Position numbers and translations under genes: made by a program. A DNA stretch of 64,000 nucleotides from Bacteroidales bacterium (GTDB lineage Bacteria > Bacteroidota > Bacteroidia > Bacteroidales > Paludibacteraceae). Below, in pieces: positions 29,415 through 64,000 of this stretch (positions are counted from its first letter, which is position 1; each line of letters begins with the position of its first letter). The stretch covers positions 1 to 64,000 of the forward strand of contig DUQG01000080.1 of NCBI GenBank assembly GCA_012837935.1, read 5' to 3'. The notes under the pieces were generated by a model, which saw only the letters and a list, made by a program, of their open reading frames with translations, did no database searches and was not told where the DNA came from.

Positions 29415-30734
29415 ATGAACAAAATAGAATTAAATAATAAGAAAGAATTCCCCCTTCAGGGGGTTAGGGGGCCTTTAAGTAGAAAAGACATAGAAATAAT
29501 GGCGCCTGCAGGTAGTTGGGAAAGTTTGGCTGCAGCGATAAAAGCGGGTGCAAATTCGGTCTATTTTGGGATTGAAAACCTAAATATGCGAAGCAAATCG
29601 AGCAGTAATTTCACTACGGAAGATTTGCGGAAAATTGTAGCAATATGTCAAGAAAACAACGTAAATAGTTACCTGACCGTAAACACCATTATTTACGACG
29701 AAGATATTTCATTGATGCGTGAAATTATCGATACAGCAAAAGAAGTGAATGTTACCGCGATTATTGCATCAGATGTAGCAGCAATGATGTATGCATCAAG
29801 TATTGGTGTGGAAGTGCATCTTTCAGTACAAACAAACATAACTAATGTGGAATCGTTGAAATTTTATGCACAATTTGCCGATGTGGTAGTATTAGCACGT
29901 GAATTAAATTTGAAGCAAGTGGCTGCAATTCATAAAGCTATTGTAGATGAACAGATTAAAGGCAAAAATGGCGAGCTAATTCGTATTGAAATGTTTGCTC
30001 ACGGTGCACTTTGTATGGCTGTTTCAGGTAAATGTTATTTGAGCCTTCACGAAAAAAATCTTTCAGCGAATCGTGGTGCTTGTAATCAAATCTGCCGTCG
30101 TGGATATATTGTAAAAGATAAAGACAGTGAAGTTGAGTTAGAGATTGATAATGAATATATTATGTCGCCAAAAGACTTGAAAACTATCGGTTTTTTGGAT
30201 GAAATGATTGAAGCGGGTGTGCGAGTTTTCAAAATTGAAGGACGTGCCCGTGGACCTGAATATGTAAAAACTGTGGTAGAATGTTACAGCGAAGCAGTGG
30301 ATGCAGTTCTGAATGATGAATTTACCGAAGAAAAAGTAGAACAGTGGAATAAGCGTCTTTCTAAGGTATTTAATCGCGGATTTTGGAATGGATATTACCT
30401 TGGACAACGACTCGGAGAATGGAGCAAAAACTACGGTTCGGAAGCTACACATCGTAAAGTTTATGTGGGAAAAGTAACTAATTATTACAATAAAATTGGT
30501 GTAGCAGAGATTTTACTTGAAGCTCAAAACTTGAAAGTTGGCGATGAAATTCTAATTACAGGAGAAACAACTGGTGCTTACGAAGATATTGTAGAAGAAT
30601 TACGTTTTGAACTTAAACCTGTTCAGGAAGTAAAAAAAGGCGATTTATTCTCGTTAAAAACCGATGAACTTGTTAGACGAAATGATAAAGTTTATAAGAT
30701 AGTGGAAGCGAGTAAGATAAAAAATAGACAGTAA
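29415..30734 (+). CDS. U32 peptidase-family protein (TrhP/YegQ type)
   Basis: A 439-residue protein with the U32 fold: IMAPAGSWESLAAAIKAGANSVYFG at the N-terminal TIM barrel, FAHGALCMAVSGKCYLS, and Cys residues in NRGACNQICRRGY that likely bind an iron-sulfur cluster, then the C-terminal beta domain. Relatives YegQ (TrhP) act in tRNA U34 5-hydroxylation, which is more likely than proteolysis. Residues 11-21 (EFPLQGVRGPL) are encoded by a C/G palindrome copy inserted in frame before the first conserved strand; homologues start about there, so a downstream start is possible. Confidence 0.85.
   Translation: MNKIELNNKKEFPLQGVRGPLSRKDIEIMAPAGSWESLAAAIKAGANSVYFGIENLNMRSKSSSNFTTEDLRKIVAICQENNVNSYLTVNTIIYDEDISLMREIIDTAKEVNVTAIIASDVAAMMYASSIGVEVHLSVQTNITNVESLKFYAQFADVVVLARELNLKQVAAIHKAIVDEQIKGKNGELIRIEMFAHGALCMAVSGKCYLSLHEKNLSANRGACNQICRRGYIVKDKDSEVELEIDNEYIMSPKDLKTIGFLDEMIEAGVRVFKIEGRARGPEYVKTVVECYSEAVDAVLNDEFTEEKVEQWNKRLSKVFNRGFWNGYYLGQRLGEWSKNYGSEATHRKVYVGKVTNYYNKIGVAEILLEAQNLKVGDEILITGETTGAYEDIVEELRFELKPVQEVKKGDLFSLKTDELVRRNDKVYKIVEASKIKNRQ
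29447..29476. repeat. C/G palindrome copy D (in frame at the U32 N-terminus)
   Basis: ATTCCCCCTTCAGGGGG followed by TTAGGGGGCCTTT: the best-preserved single copy. It is open in the frame of the U32 gene and adds about ten residues. Confidence 0.75.
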
Positions 30735-59641: not shown

Positions 59642-61111
59642 ATGACAACATCCAATAAAGGAAAAATAAATTGCTTTATTCCTTTTGCCGACAAAAAACA
59701 GGCGAAAAAAACCATTCAAGGATTGCGTGCAAGCAGTTTAGTAAATAAAATTTATTTGCTGGCAAGCGAAAACACAACAGAGCAAGTCGAAGGGTGTAAA
59801 GTACTAAAAATCAAAGCACTCAATGCAAGTAGCACCATAAAAACCATCAATCAACATGCCAATGCTGATTTTACATTGTTTTACAACAAATACACTACGC
59901 TGGAATTGGGTTATTTCGCATTGGAGCGGATGATACATATTGCTGACGACTGCGGAGCGGGAATGGTTTATGCCGACCATTATAAAATCGTTGGCGACAC
60001 CAAAACCAATGCACCGGTTATTGATTATCAGCTTGGTAGCTTACGTGATGATTTTGATTTTGGTTCCGTGATGGTTTTCAAATCCGAAGCTTTTCGTAAT
60101 GCAGCGAGCAGACTGAAAGCCGATTATGAGTTTGCCGGATGGTACGATTTGCGTTTGAAACTTTCGCAAAAACACCTGCCAATACACATCAACGAATATC
60201 TCTACACCGAAGTAGAACATGACACTCGAAAAAGTGGTGAGAAGATTTTTGATTATGTTGACCCGAAAAACCGTGCCGTTCAAATCGAGATGGAACAAGC
60301 TTGTACAGAGCATTTGAAGGAAATTGGCGGATATTTGAAACCGGAATTTAAGCAGATTGAATTCTCAGAAGGCGATTTCGAGTTTGAAGCTTCGGTAATT
60401 ATTCCGGTACGTAATCGGATAAAAACCATAAAAGATGCCATTAAATCGGTTTTGATGCAGAAAACGGACTTCAAATTTAACCTGATAATTGTGGATAATC
60501 ACTCAACCGACGGCACTACGGAAGCCATTCAAGAATTTGCTACCGATGAGCGATTAATTCACGTTATCCCTGAGCGACACGATTTGGGTATCGGTGGTTG
60601 CTGGAATGTAGGCGTACACCATCCGAAATGCGGGAAATTCGCTGTTCAGCTCGATAGTGACGATGTGTACAGCGATGAAAACACCTTGCAGACGATGGTT
60701 GATGCATTTTATGAACAAAACTGTGCGATGGTTGTCGGCACTTACATGATGACCAATTTTGATATGGAAATGATTCCGCCGGGTATTATTGACCACCGCG
60801 AATGGACACCCGAAAACGGCAGAAACAATGCTTTGCGTATCAATGGATTGGGTGCACCACGAGCATTTTACACACCTTTACTTCGTGAAATAAAAGTTCC
60901 TAACACAAGCTACGGCGAGGACTACGCACTTGGATTGCGTTTCTCTCGTGAATACCAAATTGGACGCGTGTATGACGTGGTTTATCACTGTCGCCGCTGG
61001 GAAGGTAATTCTGATGCATCGTTGGATATTGTGAAAATGAACGGAAACAACTTGTACAAAGACAGAATTCGTACTTGGGAATTGATGGCAAGAATGAAGA
61101 TGTCTAAATAA
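59642..61111 (+). CDS. Two-part protein with C-terminal family 2 glycosyltransferase
   Basis: A 489-residue cytosolic-looking protein. Residues 1-235 resemble a degenerate nucleotidyl/glycosyltransferase fold ([36 protein letters not shown]). Residues about 250-489 are a GT-A family 2 domain: [33 protein letters not shown], the DxD motif in [10 protein letters not shown], and ED in [12 protein letters not shown]. It precedes the DUF4922 and SpoIID genes by 26 and then minus 4 bases; I believe the same trio recurs in Bacteroidales, pointing to a shared, undescribed glycan pathway. Confidence 0.82.
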
Positions 61112-61137
61112 TAATTTATTAGGCTTTAAGGATAAAA

Positions 61138-62148
61138 ATGACAAATACAGTTGAACAGTTATTGATTGAACAGTTAGCTATCTGGGAAACGGCTCGAAAT
61201 AATTTCGAAGCTCTGAAACAGGTAAAAACCAAAGAGTTAAACGTGAACGGAGCCAAATTCTACGTTCAGTTTAATCCGGCTCGGATTGTTTCGTCAGGTG
61301 CAAAGGTTGATGCCAAAAGCATTCAAGAGCGAAAATGTTTTCTCTGTGCAGAAAATCGTCCGAGAGAACAGGTAGGTTTAAAAGTCCCCCTTGGGAAATT
61401 TAGGAGGCAAGAAAGGCTTTACAGCATTTTGGTTAATCCGTTTCCAATTTTTCCGAAGCATTTTACCATTCCGGATATGGTGCATAAACCGCAACTGATT
61501 TTGTCTCGTTTTGGTGATATGCTGGATTTGGCGGAATATATGAAAGATTATGTGATTTTCTACAACGGTCCGAAATGCGGTGCATCAGCACCCGACCACG
61601 TTCATTTTCAAGCCGGAAACAAAGGATTTCTGCCGATTGAAAAAGAATGGAAAAAGCATATTGAAGCGACCATAATTGATAACGACAACATCAAACTACA
61701 TAAGGTAAATTACGGTTTTCCTTTATTCCTTTTTGAAACAAACGACAAAAAGAAAGGAATTGAGCTATTTAAAAAGATTTACAACGCACTTCCACTAAAT
61801 GACAGCGAAACAGAGCCAATGATGAATATTCTAGTCTGGGTGGAAAGTCCCGAAACTCAAAAAAAGTCCACTTCCTTTCCCCTTTTGGGGAAAGTCCCGA
61901 AGGGGATAGGGGCTGGGGGATTTAGGGGGGCAATTATCCCACGAGCCAAACATCGTCCCGACTGCTATTTTGCCGAAGGCGAAAAAAATATTTTGCTTAG
62001 TCCGGCATCGGTCGATTTGGGCGGTGTGCTAATTACACCGTTAGAAAAAGATTTTGAAAAAATAACGGCTGAAGATGTAGCTGAAATTTTAGCCGAAGTT
62101 TGTTTTGATGAAAAAACTTTCAAAAAAGTAATTCAAAAAATCCAATGA
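61138..62148 (+). CDS. DUF4922 protein, HIT-like nucleotidyltransferase fold, with two in-frame palindrome insertions
   Basis: A 336-residue protein of the DUF4922 family, related to GalT/ATP adenylyltransferase. Key parts: CFLCAENRP (CxxC), VNPFPIFPKHFTIP, and the HIT-like active site GASAPDHVHFQAG. Later PRAKHRPDCYF and SPASVDLGGVLITPLEKDFEKI are conserved. Two segments look foreign: residues about 82-91 (VPLGKFRRQE) and about 246-265 (FPLLGKVPKGIGAGGFRG), both encoded by C/G palindromes and lying in loops. The reading frame is kept open, so the protein may still function. It overlaps the next gene by four bases (ATGA). Confidence 0.82.
   Translation: MTNTVEQLLIEQLAIWETARNNFEALKQVKTKELNVNGAKFYVQFNPARIVSSGAKVDAKSIQERKCFLCAENRPREQVGLKVPLGKFRRQERLYSILVNPFPIFPKHFTIPDMVHKPQLILSRFGDMLDLAEYMKDYVIFYNGPKCGASAPDHVHFQAGNKGFLPIEKEWKKHIEATIIDNDNIKLHKVNYGFPLFLFETNDKKKGIELFKKIYNALPLNDSETEPMMNILVWVESPETQKKSTSFPLLGKVPKGIGAGGFRGAIIPRAKHRPDCYFAEGEKNILLSPASVDLGGVLITPLEKDFEKITAEDVAEILAEVCFDEKTFKKVIQKIQ
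61383..61408. repeat. C/G palindrome copy I (in frame in the DUF4922 gene)
   Basis: AGTCCCCCTTGGGAAATTTAGGAGG: left arm intact, right arm decayed. The usual GGGGG is reduced to GGG and GGAGG. Confidence 0.55.
61875..61931. repeat. C/G palindrome copy J (in frame in the DUF4922 gene, long form)
   Basis: CTTTCCCC-TTTT-GGGGAAAG is a perfect hairpin (61875-61894), followed by GTCCCGAAGGGGATAGGGGC and then TGGGGGATTTAGGGGGGC. The G-rich side has four runs of G, so it could also form a quadruplex. Confidence 0.75.
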
Positions 62149-63821
62149 CGCAAGAACCAAAACTTACGGTCGGAATTATGTTTGAGCCGGAAATCAATTT
62201 TTCCCTGCTCGGCAAATACACATACGAAGGACAAACTGTTTTAGGCATACAACATGTTGCTTATGCAAACGGCAAAATAGCCTGGAACGGCAAGTTGTAC
62301 GATGAATTGCTTTTCACACCGCAAGATGAAAAAACCGATGCTTTTGAACTGATAGACGTAACTATTGGCATTGAGTTTCACTGGGAACGAAAAGAAAATC
62401 AGCGATTTACAGGTGCTTTGAAAATCATCGTAGAAAATGAAAAACTGACCGCAATCAACGTGATTTCGGTGGAAGATTATCTGACAAGCGTAATTTCGTC
62501 GGAAATGAGTGCCACCGCATCACTCGAACTGCTTAAAGCTCACGCAGTTATTTCAAGAAGTTGGGTGTTAAGCCCAAAGATACCTGCCCCCCACCCCCCT
62601 AAAGGGGGAGTTAAGAGCGCGTATCCACCTTTGTACTCGCGATTAAAGGAATTGGCTCTTAAACACCGTCACAATCCTACAGATGCAGAGAGTTTTCTTT
62701 GGGAAAACTTAAAAGGGAAAAATCTGGATGGGTATAAATTTAGAAGACAACACATAATAGACGACTGCATTGTTGACTTTGTTTGTTTAAGTGAAAGATT
62801 AATTATTGAGGTTGATGGAAAATATCACGATGAACCTGATGTACAAGAATACGATAAACTTCGTACTCAACTACTGAATAGAAACGGCTACAAAGTTATT
62901 CGATTTACAAATGAAGAAGTGTTGTTTGAAATTGAAAAAGTTCTTAATAGCATAAAATCTGAATTGCACACCAATACTCCCCCTTCAGGGGGCGGAGGGG
63001 CTGGTCTTATCTGGTACGAACGAGATGCTCACACTAACTTCGACGTTTGTGCAGACGATCACTGCCAACGTTATCAGGGGATTACACGTGCATCTACCGA
63101 AATTGTAAAGCAAGCAATAGCCGAAACTTGCGGTCAGGTTTTGACTTACGAAGGAAAAATTTGTGATGCTCGTTTTTCTAAATGTTGCGGTGGTGTGTTT
63201 GAAGAATTTCAAAACTGCTGGAACAATATATACTATCCCTACTTGCGCAAAACAAGAGACTATAAATCAGACACTTCCATTCCGGATTTGACTATCGAAA
63301 GTGAAGCAGAAAAATGGATTAGAACTTTGCCGGAAGCTTTTTGCAACACGAAAGACAAGCAAATTCTTTCGCAAGTTTTGAATAATTACGATCAAGAAAC
63401 CACCGACTTTTATCGCTGGAAAGTAGCCTACTCGCAAAAAGAACTTTCGGAACTAATCCTAAAACGTTCCGGTGTGGATTACGGTAAAATTATTGATTTA
63501 CTGCCAATTGAGCGGGGAACTTCCGGACGATTAATCAAGCTGAAAATCATTGGAACAAAGAGAACACGCACTATTGGTAAAGAACTTGAAATCAGACGAA
63601 CACTTTCCGAAAGCCATCTTTACAGTTCGGCTTTTGTGGTGGATAAGGAATTTTCTGTAGATAAAGAAATTCCTTCCAAATTTATCCTAACTGGTGCCGG
63701 ATGGGGACACGGCGTGGGACTTTGCCAAATCGGTGCTTCTGTGATGGGTGAAATGGGATACGACTACAAAGAAATTTTGGAACATTATTATCCTGATAGT
63801 GAAGTGTCTAAACTGTATTGA
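62145..63821 (+). CDS. SpoIID/LytB-domain protein interrupted in frame by a DUF559 nuclease element
   Basis: A 558-residue open frame. Residues 1-145 and 288-558 together form a Bacteroidetes SpoIID-type protein of about 416 residues: VEDYLTSVISSEMSATASLELLKAHAVISRSW, then WYERDAHTNFDVCADDHCQRYQGITRAS, CCGGVFEEFQ and GWGHGVGLCQIGA near the end (all read in pieces). SpoIID proteins cleave or remodel glycans of peptidoglycan. Between them, residues about 146-287 are unrelated: C/G palindromes at both ends and a DUF559 endonuclease domain. The frame runs through the whole insertion. Whether the host protein still folds or is a pseudogene is unknown. It is the last gene of the GT2-DUF4922-SpoIID trio. 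Confidence 0.85.
   Translation: MTQEPKLTVGIMFEPEINFSLLGKYTYEGQTVLGIQHVAYANGKIAWNGKLYDELLFTPQDEKTDAFELIDVTIGIEFHWERKENQRFTGALKIIVENEKLTAINVISVEDYLTSVISSEMSATASLELLKAHAVISRSWVLSPKIPAPHPPKGGVKSAYPPLYSRLKELALKHRHNPTDAESFLWENLKGKNLDGYKFRRQHIIDDCIVDFVCLSERLIIEVDGKYHDEPDVQEYDKLRTQLLNRNGYKVIRFTNEEVLFEIEKVLNSIKSELHTNTPPSGGGGAGLIWYERDAHTNFDVCADDHCQRYQGITRASTEIVKQAIAETCGQVLTYEGKICDARFSKCCGGVFEEFQNCWNNIYYPYLRKTRDYKSDTSIPDLTIESEAEKWIRTLPEAFCNTKDKQILSQVLNNYDQETTDFYRWKVAYSQKELSELILKRSGVDYGKIIDLLPIERGTSGRLIKLKIIGTKRTRTIGKELEIRRTLSESHLYSSAFVVDKEFSVDKEIPSKFILTGAGWGHGVGLCQIGASVMGEMGYDYKEILEHYYPDSEVSKLY
62582..62613. repeat. Left inverted copy of the C/G palindrome (element K)
   Basis: C-rich orientation at the left edge of the nuclease element. 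Itself internally palindromic (CCCCCCT-A-AAGGGGG). Confidence 0.75.
62976..63005. repeat. Right inverted copy of the C/G palindrome (element K)
   Basis: G-rich orientation at the right edge, the same orientation and near-identical sequence to single copies D, E and F. Confidence 0.75.
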
Positions 63822-63837
63822 AATAAAAGTGTATATA

Positions 63838-64000
63838 ATGGCTATAAGTTACACAAATAGAAAAAAGGACAAGTTTTTTGCTAAAATGATTTTATCAAAA
63901 AAGGGTACTATTCGTTATTATCCCGTTAAAGATAATCCAGAATTAAATCAAAATGAAATTGCTGAAAAATTACCCGATAATTTTGAATTCTATGAACATC
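63838..64000 (+). CDS. N-terminal part of a conserved hypothetical protein (cut by window end)
   Basis: ATG at 63838 opens a frame of 54 codons to the window edge: MAISYTNRKKDKFFAK... KLPDNFEFYEH. The opening SYTNRK and the later (I/L)P-x-(G/N)FEFYE pattern resemble a conserved hypothetical family that begins with a short strand-rich repeat. Function unknown. It follows the SpoIID gene by 16 bases. Confidence 0.6.
   Translation, partial: MAISYTNRKKDKFFAKMILSKKGTIRYYPVKDNPELNQNEIAEKLPDNFEFYEH

Follow-up and report, generated by a model that had tools for sequence, protein, structure and literature searches.

Palindromes translated within a DUF4922 gene and their possible relation to in-frame DUF559 nuclease cassettes in conserved genes of Bacteroidota

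The DUF4922 gene in the window (the whole stretch of 64,000 nucleotides analysed here) had been proposed, in a sequence-only reading, to carry two palindrome copies translated in frame, which raises the question of how palindromes came to lie within this coding sequence. The presence and the frame of both copies were borne out by a match to the palindrome consensus, by repeats elsewhere in the genome, and by translation, whereas copy A proved degenerate (Table 1). Copy A, AAGTCCCCCTTGGGAAATTTAGGAGGCA, departs at 3 of 28 positions from the consensus AAGTCCCCCTTGGGGGATTTAGGGGGCA, which was typed by hand for the window search; no other stretch of the window matches this consensus with three mismatches or fewer. 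It is translated as KVPLGKFRRQ, at exactly the residues that had been named. Copy B consists of a 29-nt core, TTTGGGGAAAGTCCCGAAGGGGATAGGGG, followed by GGGGGATTTAGGGGGGC, the usual 3' end of the palindrome. At up to three mismatches the places at which the core occurs in the genome include site B, and a backwards control gave 0. RNA folding of four palindrome stretches placed none of them clearly above its shuffles (z 0.99, -0.44, -0.83, and 0.39). This result and the degeneracy of copy A would suit a reading of the inserts as chance GC-rich expansions or assembly errors, but that reading is barely credible: no match to the consensus at up to three mismatches was found in 100 dinucleotide shuffles, the core of copy B recurs in the genome, and the cassettes described below recur in records of named strains, e.g. 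Flagellimonas marinaquae JCM11811 and Dysgonomonas sp. 521.

Table 1. Positions of the palindromes, the nuclease cassette, and their host genes in the window
Feature	Position	Strand	Evidence
DUF4922 gene, 336 aa, with palindrome copies A and B in frame	61138-62148	+	PF16269, E 3.5e-63
Palindrome copy A, degenerate, residues 82-91	61382-61409	+	3 mismatches to consensus; 0/100 shuffles; 0/28 aligned orthologues
Palindrome copy B, composite repeat, residues ~243-265	~61864-61931	+	29-nt core at 4 genome places; +22 residues
SpoIID/LytB-domain gene, 558 aa, nuclease cassette in frame	62145-63821	+	Pfam SpoIID in two stretches with DUF559; TIGR02669 over cut-off
Cassette left end, inverted palindrome	62582-62611	-	Inverted-repeat pair I1, 30 nt, 83% complementary
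DUF559 nuclease domain fused in frame to SpoIID	62640-62966	+	PF04480, E 7.3e-36, no internal stop
Cassette right end, palindrome	62976-63005	+	Inverted-repeat pair I1

Orthologues with the same residues would have spoken against insertion and were therefore looked for. PF16269 gave 34 matches in 61 genomes, from which 30 loci were fetched and 29 aligned, L084 being missed by the motif filter, and the window's own gene was compared with the 28 others. Palindrome-like residues at site A or B were found in none of them. Compared with the same-genus orthologues L063 and L069, the segment at site A is 8 residues longer and site B has the net gain given in Table 1. Small extra lengths occur among the orthologues, with 4 residues at site A in L086 and 6 at site B in L064; the DNA of the sites was inspected in 6 of the 30 loci, and that of L064 lacks G/C runs at site B. 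The expectation that both inserts form loops stands in so far as the two sites lie between conserved blocks of the alignment, but the single-sequence structure model (pLDDT 32.5) is too poor to place them. As in-frame palindromes absent from orthologues, the two copies agree with the analogy to Rickettsia palindromic elements (RPEs) that had been drawn for them. In five relatives (L070, L076, L081, L086, and L091) DUF4922 and SpoIID form one open reading frame; in the window they are adjacent genes.

The SpoIID gene had been counted as the site of a third insertion. An insertion is indeed present, but it is not a bare palindrome: it is a nuclease domain bounded by palindromes, in the order inverted palindrome, DUF559 nuclease, and palindrome (62582-63005). 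A suggested hotspot for insertion can be kept solely in the sense of nearness, since the DUF4922 copies lie 0.65-1.2 kb from a cassette with similar palindromes. The suggested alternative, that such inserts are tolerated only in this pathway, failed, as nuclease cassettes with similar ends were found in 17 unrelated host families and a palindrome is also translated in a U32 peptidase gene. The earlier interpretation as a whole is thus partly supported. The U32 peptidase gene lies at 29415-30734 of the window (PF01136, E 2.1e-66); its palindrome copy, at about 29450-29475, reads EFPLQGVRGP near the N terminus, given the listed start. At the SpoIID site itself, the DUF4922 loci allowed 15 other relatives to be read, none of which has DUF559 there. 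The site is filled in the same-genus genomes G004 and G005 (L038 and L092), and a Bacteroidaceae MAG (L167) has DUF559 in the same SpoIID loop. Among three species the nuclease at this site shows dN of 0.09-0.11 versus dS of 0.82-1.81 and is under purifying selection.

The window's own genome has exactly three PF04480 matches, all of them stop-free inside host frames (551, 569, and 1281 aa); one host is SpoIID, and the other two are PrmC and IleRS. On the two sides of the insert, the ileS model aligns over positions 5-557 and 562-857 and the PrmC model over positions 4-85 and 89-252; at most a few host residues were lost at either. Each of the two enzymes is the sole match over the cut-off in a genome that is 99.3% complete, and to judge from these matches the fused IleRS and PrmC must serve unless another enzyme stands in. 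Around the cassettes in PrmC (L001) and in UvrA (L094), stacked palindrome copies were observed, giving long translated linkers.

The occurrence of such cassettes was then surveyed across the phylum. PF04480 is present in 28 of the 61 genomes (own included), where 44 matches reached E 1e-19 or better and 21 of these were in-frame inserts. With 19 fused domains as seeds, a further search gave 80 named loci, 63 of them in frames of at least 300 aa, a fraction biased upward because the query contained fused domains only and a motif pattern was applied. An even draw of 148 genomes of the phylum yielded 142 PF04480 matches, 3 of them own; among the other 139, 26 matches in 22 of 147 genomes lie in frames of at least 300 aa, which is an upper bound because some long frames may be natural fusions. 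The total collected was 80 distinct fused ORFs in 17 host families, namely IleRS (18, two sites), RecG (14), LeuRS (13), MetH (9, three sites), ValRS (7), SpoIID (4), UvrA (3), Gmk (2), and a DegT-family aminotransferase (2), with single cases in PrmC, chorismate synthase, an epimerase/Polysacc_synt_C protein, tRNA nucleotidyltransferase (PolyA_pol), IspG, MazG, TruB, and a GNAT protein. This number, which equals that of the named loci by coincidence, results from 83 fused ORFs by subtraction of four duplicates (L120/L094, L122/L040, L134/L098, and L155/L034, each pair counted once since contigs of equal length with identical flanking residues were judged the same) and addition of L047. Rows with weak or partial PF04480 matches and rows without the search motif were left out. 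L044, L047, L048, L055-L060, and L106 were read separately, whereby L047 was recognised as a further in-frame insert; L056, L057, and L059 look like C-terminal fusions of a different kind. The host names of 43 fused proteins derive from clustering with Pfam-scanned ones and from signature motifs. DUF559 is at the protein end in five of the 80 (both Gmk, IspG, TruB, and GNAT), where a fusion is unremarkable.

In the two aminotransferases, which come from different genera, the DegT profile is split at the same site, positions 155-156. A methionine synthase of a Flavobacterium sp. MAG (L168, 1277-4792) shows two DUF559 stretches by Pfam and NCBIfam, and this single host gene therefore holds two nuclease domains, which flank the B12-binding domain. 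The records with fused ORFs are almost all titled as Bacteroidota, the exceptions being an Ignavibacterium MAG (L132) and a Limnohabitans MAG (L163). The RecG insert of the latter groups with Flavobacterium difficile (support 95) though the record is titled betaproteobacterium, and our guess is mis-binning.

The scanned hosts, judged by profile scores, mostly appear to be whole enzymes. Scores exceeded the curated equivalog cut-offs (given second) for LeuRS L188 (900.9, 548.4), IleRS L123 (976.4, 621.4), ValRS L144 (1084.5, 704), RecG L151 (906.4, 711), MetH L142 (1196.1, 1010.85), UvrA L040 (865.1, 729.8), and Gmk L190 (210.3, 160.45). The sister models NF001503 for UvrA and NF007024 for MetH were missed by the fused hosts, and the two fused aminotransferases reached no NCBIfam cut-off.

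Presence of the cassette is patchy, and empty sites were read directly in LeuRS, where the insertion site is the stretch NWIGRSEGAE...FTTRPDT. The survey covered the best-scoring 30 loci from 37 genomes, a sample that for this reason favours empty sites; among the 25 readable loci, 24 were empty (30-49 residues) and one was filled. Four more filled sites were found through the DUF559 search. Within the 37 genomes a filled site is known in three (G005, G017, and G038), each of which has a single strong LeuRS match. The LeuRS site of L230 (G019) has normal length and contains C-rich DNA reading IHLPLHLSLTD, similar to the left end of the L039 cassette; it is possibly the scar of a lost cassette. 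A structure model of a LeuRS fusion (L188 with seven relatives) reached a mean pLDDT of 51.2 and a pTM of 0.30 and is too weak to lean on; its block means are 60-80 over the nuclease part (about residues 361-460), with residues 328-358, 458-466, and 471-483 below 50.

An insert of some 140 residues in conserved parts of essential enzymes should be risky, and removal of the cassette by a route that has escaped recognition, be it protein processing, RNA splicing, or ribosome bypassing, as in inteins, introns, and byp elements, would avoid that risk. We regard such removal as very unlikely. No intein domain was among the Pfam matches (E to 0.001) of the 37 fused proteins, out of 80, that were scanned, and no Rfam intron family was found in positions 61000-64000 of the window and in eight loci. 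The Rfam matches in that part of the window were two weak ones (E 0.33 and 0.83), both upstream of the cassette, and the eight loci gave Flavo-1 RNA alone (L193, 3253-3342), likewise upstream of the cassette. Moreover, the frame is open throughout the cassette and the nuclease shares the frame of its host.

The inserted domains belong to DUF559 by a PF04480 profile score over the cut-off and by the nuclease residues they have kept. The residues E, W, D, E, D, and H, among which the catalytic ones lie, are present in 79 of 79 fused rows; the search motif partly preselected the E, D, and H of ExDGxxH but had no bearing on the first E, the W, or the D of VDF. Of the 36 free-standing DUF559 rows, 35 have the first E, and the remaining five residues are found in all 36. 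Against the Protein Data Bank, the DUF559 profile matched 3hrl (1.6e-30) and, at E 3.4e-7, 3r3p, which is entered as 'Mobile intron protein'. The latter match relates the nuclease by sequence to a homing endonuclease, since 3r3p is I-Bth0305I, a member of the Vsr-like EDxHD family; DUF559 itself appears to be a PD-(D/E)XK-type nuclease. In the 14 RecG loci (L141, L149-L152, L159-L161, L163, L172, L174, L191, L194, and L197), mostly from Flavobacteriaceae, the nuclease residues are intact. Matching palindromic ends are absent from 12 of these 14 cassettes while the nuclease is kept, and a domesticated nuclease is possible there.

The two ends of a cassette match each other. Compared as inverted repeats, the left and right flanks of the same cassette scored 15.9 on average versus 8.8 between different cassettes, and 0 of 5000 permutations were as high as observed. 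For 49 of 79 cassettes (RecG, 2 of 14) the score of the ends lies beyond the 99th percentile of shuffles, and in 22 of the 79 the cassette's own right end is the best partner overall. The relatedness of the nucleases tracks the host site rather than the genome. In a 115-row DUF559 tree, which is based on few columns and leaves 57 of 112 inner branches unresolved, host sites cluster with 36 changes versus a shuffled mean of 73.6 (0 of 200), and the RecG inserts form one group with a support of 92. In 45 of 70 cases a nuclease shares its host site with its nearest relative (mean of 8.5 and maximum of 23 in shuffles), and 0 of 14 share their genome with it, which leaves recent jumping within a genome unsupported. 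Independent double hits at the IleRS and SpoIID sites were not borne out either: in AU tests a single origin was not rejected for the two same-genus IleRS inserts or the four SpoIID inserts (p 0.63 and 0.57), the quick tree being beaten by both constrained trees. In the 329 same-site pairs, DUF559 is more alike than the host in merely 13, and recent transfer is therefore not favoured. From this site-faithful relatedness and the AU results it follows that descent or homing at a fixed site dominates, and jumps between genes look occasional.

Vertical descent with loss would be compatible with these data, as would homing. DUF559 could be a useful domain tethered to its host, inherited vertically and frequently lost, with the palindromes being merely good linker sequence. 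The single RecG group with its intact nucleases and mostly unmatched ends, the clustering of host sites, the purifying selection at the SpoIID site, and the 316 of 329 pairs in which hosts are more alike than nucleases all agree with this. Nevertheless it is quite unlikely in view of the spread over 17 unrelated host families, the patchy presence within a genus, and the frequency of inverted-repeat ends beyond the 99th percentile of shuffles.

This brings us back to palindromes that stand alone. The genome contains 31 strict palindromes, a pattern outside which the DUF4922 copies and the SpoIID ends fall. Six of the 31 flank or adjoin the PrmC and IleRS cassettes, and the remaining 25 are either outside open frames of at least 150 aa or at most 11 residues into one. 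As these 25 solo copies avoid gene interiors, solo copies deep within a gene, such as those in DUF4922, are unusual here. The partner of the palindromes was sought by co-occurrence, whereby kinship was ignored except for leaving out the window's genus, and overlapping readings and cassette-flanking copies were counted. The palindrome class co-occurs with DUF559: among the 61 genomes, 14 of the 22 that have DUF559 at E 1e-19 or better carry it, as do 4 of the 39 that lack such a match (p 2e-5), and outside the genus the counts are 8 of 16 versus 3 of 37 (p 0.0014). At a threshold of at least three palindrome matches, the corresponding p values are 2e-5 and 0.002. The class is absent from 8 of the 22 genomes with DUF559, and the four genomes that have it without a strong DUF559 match are G001 (23 matches), G030 (6), G018 (2), and G039 (2).

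An alternative partner is the Y1 transposase. In that case Y1 (RAYT-type) transposases would move the palindromes as ordinary REP-like repeats, the DUF4922 copies would be RPE-like insertions, and DUF559 would be a passenger. Intragenic REPs and in-frame RPEs have already been described (PMC3733652 and PMC10969869), the window's own genome has seven Y1_Tnp matches and strict palindromes mostly outside genes, and one copy of the composite B repeat has a weak Y1 match (C50:27838) at a distance of about 1.2 kb. With at least three palindrome matches an association with Y1 was observed (12 of 37 genomes with Y1 versus 2 of 24 without, p 0.03), but it was lost outside the genus (p 0.22), and at one match Y1 was predictive neither overall (14 of 37 versus 4 of 24, p 0.09) nor outside the genus (p 0.33), where DUF559 predicts the palindromes at both thresholds. 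In addition, no CCCC..GGGGATTTAGGGG palindrome was found up to 1.5 kb on either side of the seven Y1 loci. As the sole partner of the palindromes, the Y1 transposase is weakly supported at best (p 0.03-0.33), and the explanation by Y1 as a whole is unlikely. The comparison points to DUF559 rather than RAYT as the partner, and because the palindrome class tracks DUF559 more than RAYT, the DUF4922 copies are best read as nuclease-less forms.

We therefore consider it rather probable that homing-endonuclease-like cassettes invade coding sequence without splicing and that the DUF4922 palindromes are nuclease-less copies or remnants of them. A cassette would sit in frame in a conserved, often essential gene, and the nuclease would hence be made as a domain of the host protein, with the palindromes translated as Pro/Gly-rich linkers. 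Its spread would resemble that of a homing endonuclease gene: the nuclease would cut the uninterrupted allele, and occasionally another site, and repair would then copy the cassette into the cut site, the palindromes perhaps serving as functional ends. Unlike inteins and introns, such a cassette would dispense with a recognisable splicing part, and the host protein would tolerate it. The DUF4922 copies may be what is left of former cassettes, or else short copies that the same machinery has moved; sequence similarity and nearness suggest this tie between them and the cassettes. The chances are about even that the broader description also applies, that is, a selfish element of Bacteroidota that places a homing-type nuclease as a permanent domain in essential proteins, free of splicing and with its palindromic ends as linkers, the solo palindromes being its minimal or leftover form.

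Nucleases related to a homing enzyme sit in IleRS, LeuRS, or PrmC proteins that are the sole ones found in their genomes, and signs of splicing are absent. If the cassettes home, a parasite of essential genes needs no splicing. The palindromic repeats of Bacteroidota would gain a candidate mover, and natural insertion points and linkers, already tested by evolution, would be at hand in aminoacyl-tRNA synthetases and other core enzymes. Among the matches listed from the open literature, which includes few subscription papers or preprints, no description of in-frame DUF559 cassettes was found. In Legionella, a segment with a transposase and DUF559 is a recombination hotspot, according to PMC12308824.

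Several known systems share part of this arrangement. RPEs occur in frame in Rickettsia genes and REPs occur inside genes, as described in PMC10969869 and PMC3733652, and solo translated palindromes are therefore of a known kind: like these elements, the short palindromes found here lie in frame in unrelated genes. The likeness is one of arrangement, the phylum is different, and similar palindromes here also bound a translated nuclease, which goes unmentioned for RPEs in the accessible text. With inteins that carry homing endonucleases, the cassettes share an in-frame nuclease inside conserved essential genes and recurrent sites, but a splicing domain is lacking in the fused proteins scanned and the cassette appears to stay in the protein. 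The EDxHD homing endonuclease I-Bth0305I, which the DUF559 profile resembles through the match to 3r3p, is treated among group I intron endonucleases in PMC3943268, whereas no intron was found around the DUF559 cassettes scanned, for which homing is proposed from sequence. REP/RAYT systems (REPINs) likewise have many solo copies and palindromic ends in inverted pairs. Here, however, the partner appears to be a nuclease of presumed PD-(D/E)XK type instead of a Y1 transposase, as favoured by the co-occurrence with DUF559. The system behind the DUF4922 palindromes is a strong candidate for a homing-endonuclease parasite of a new, splicing-free type.
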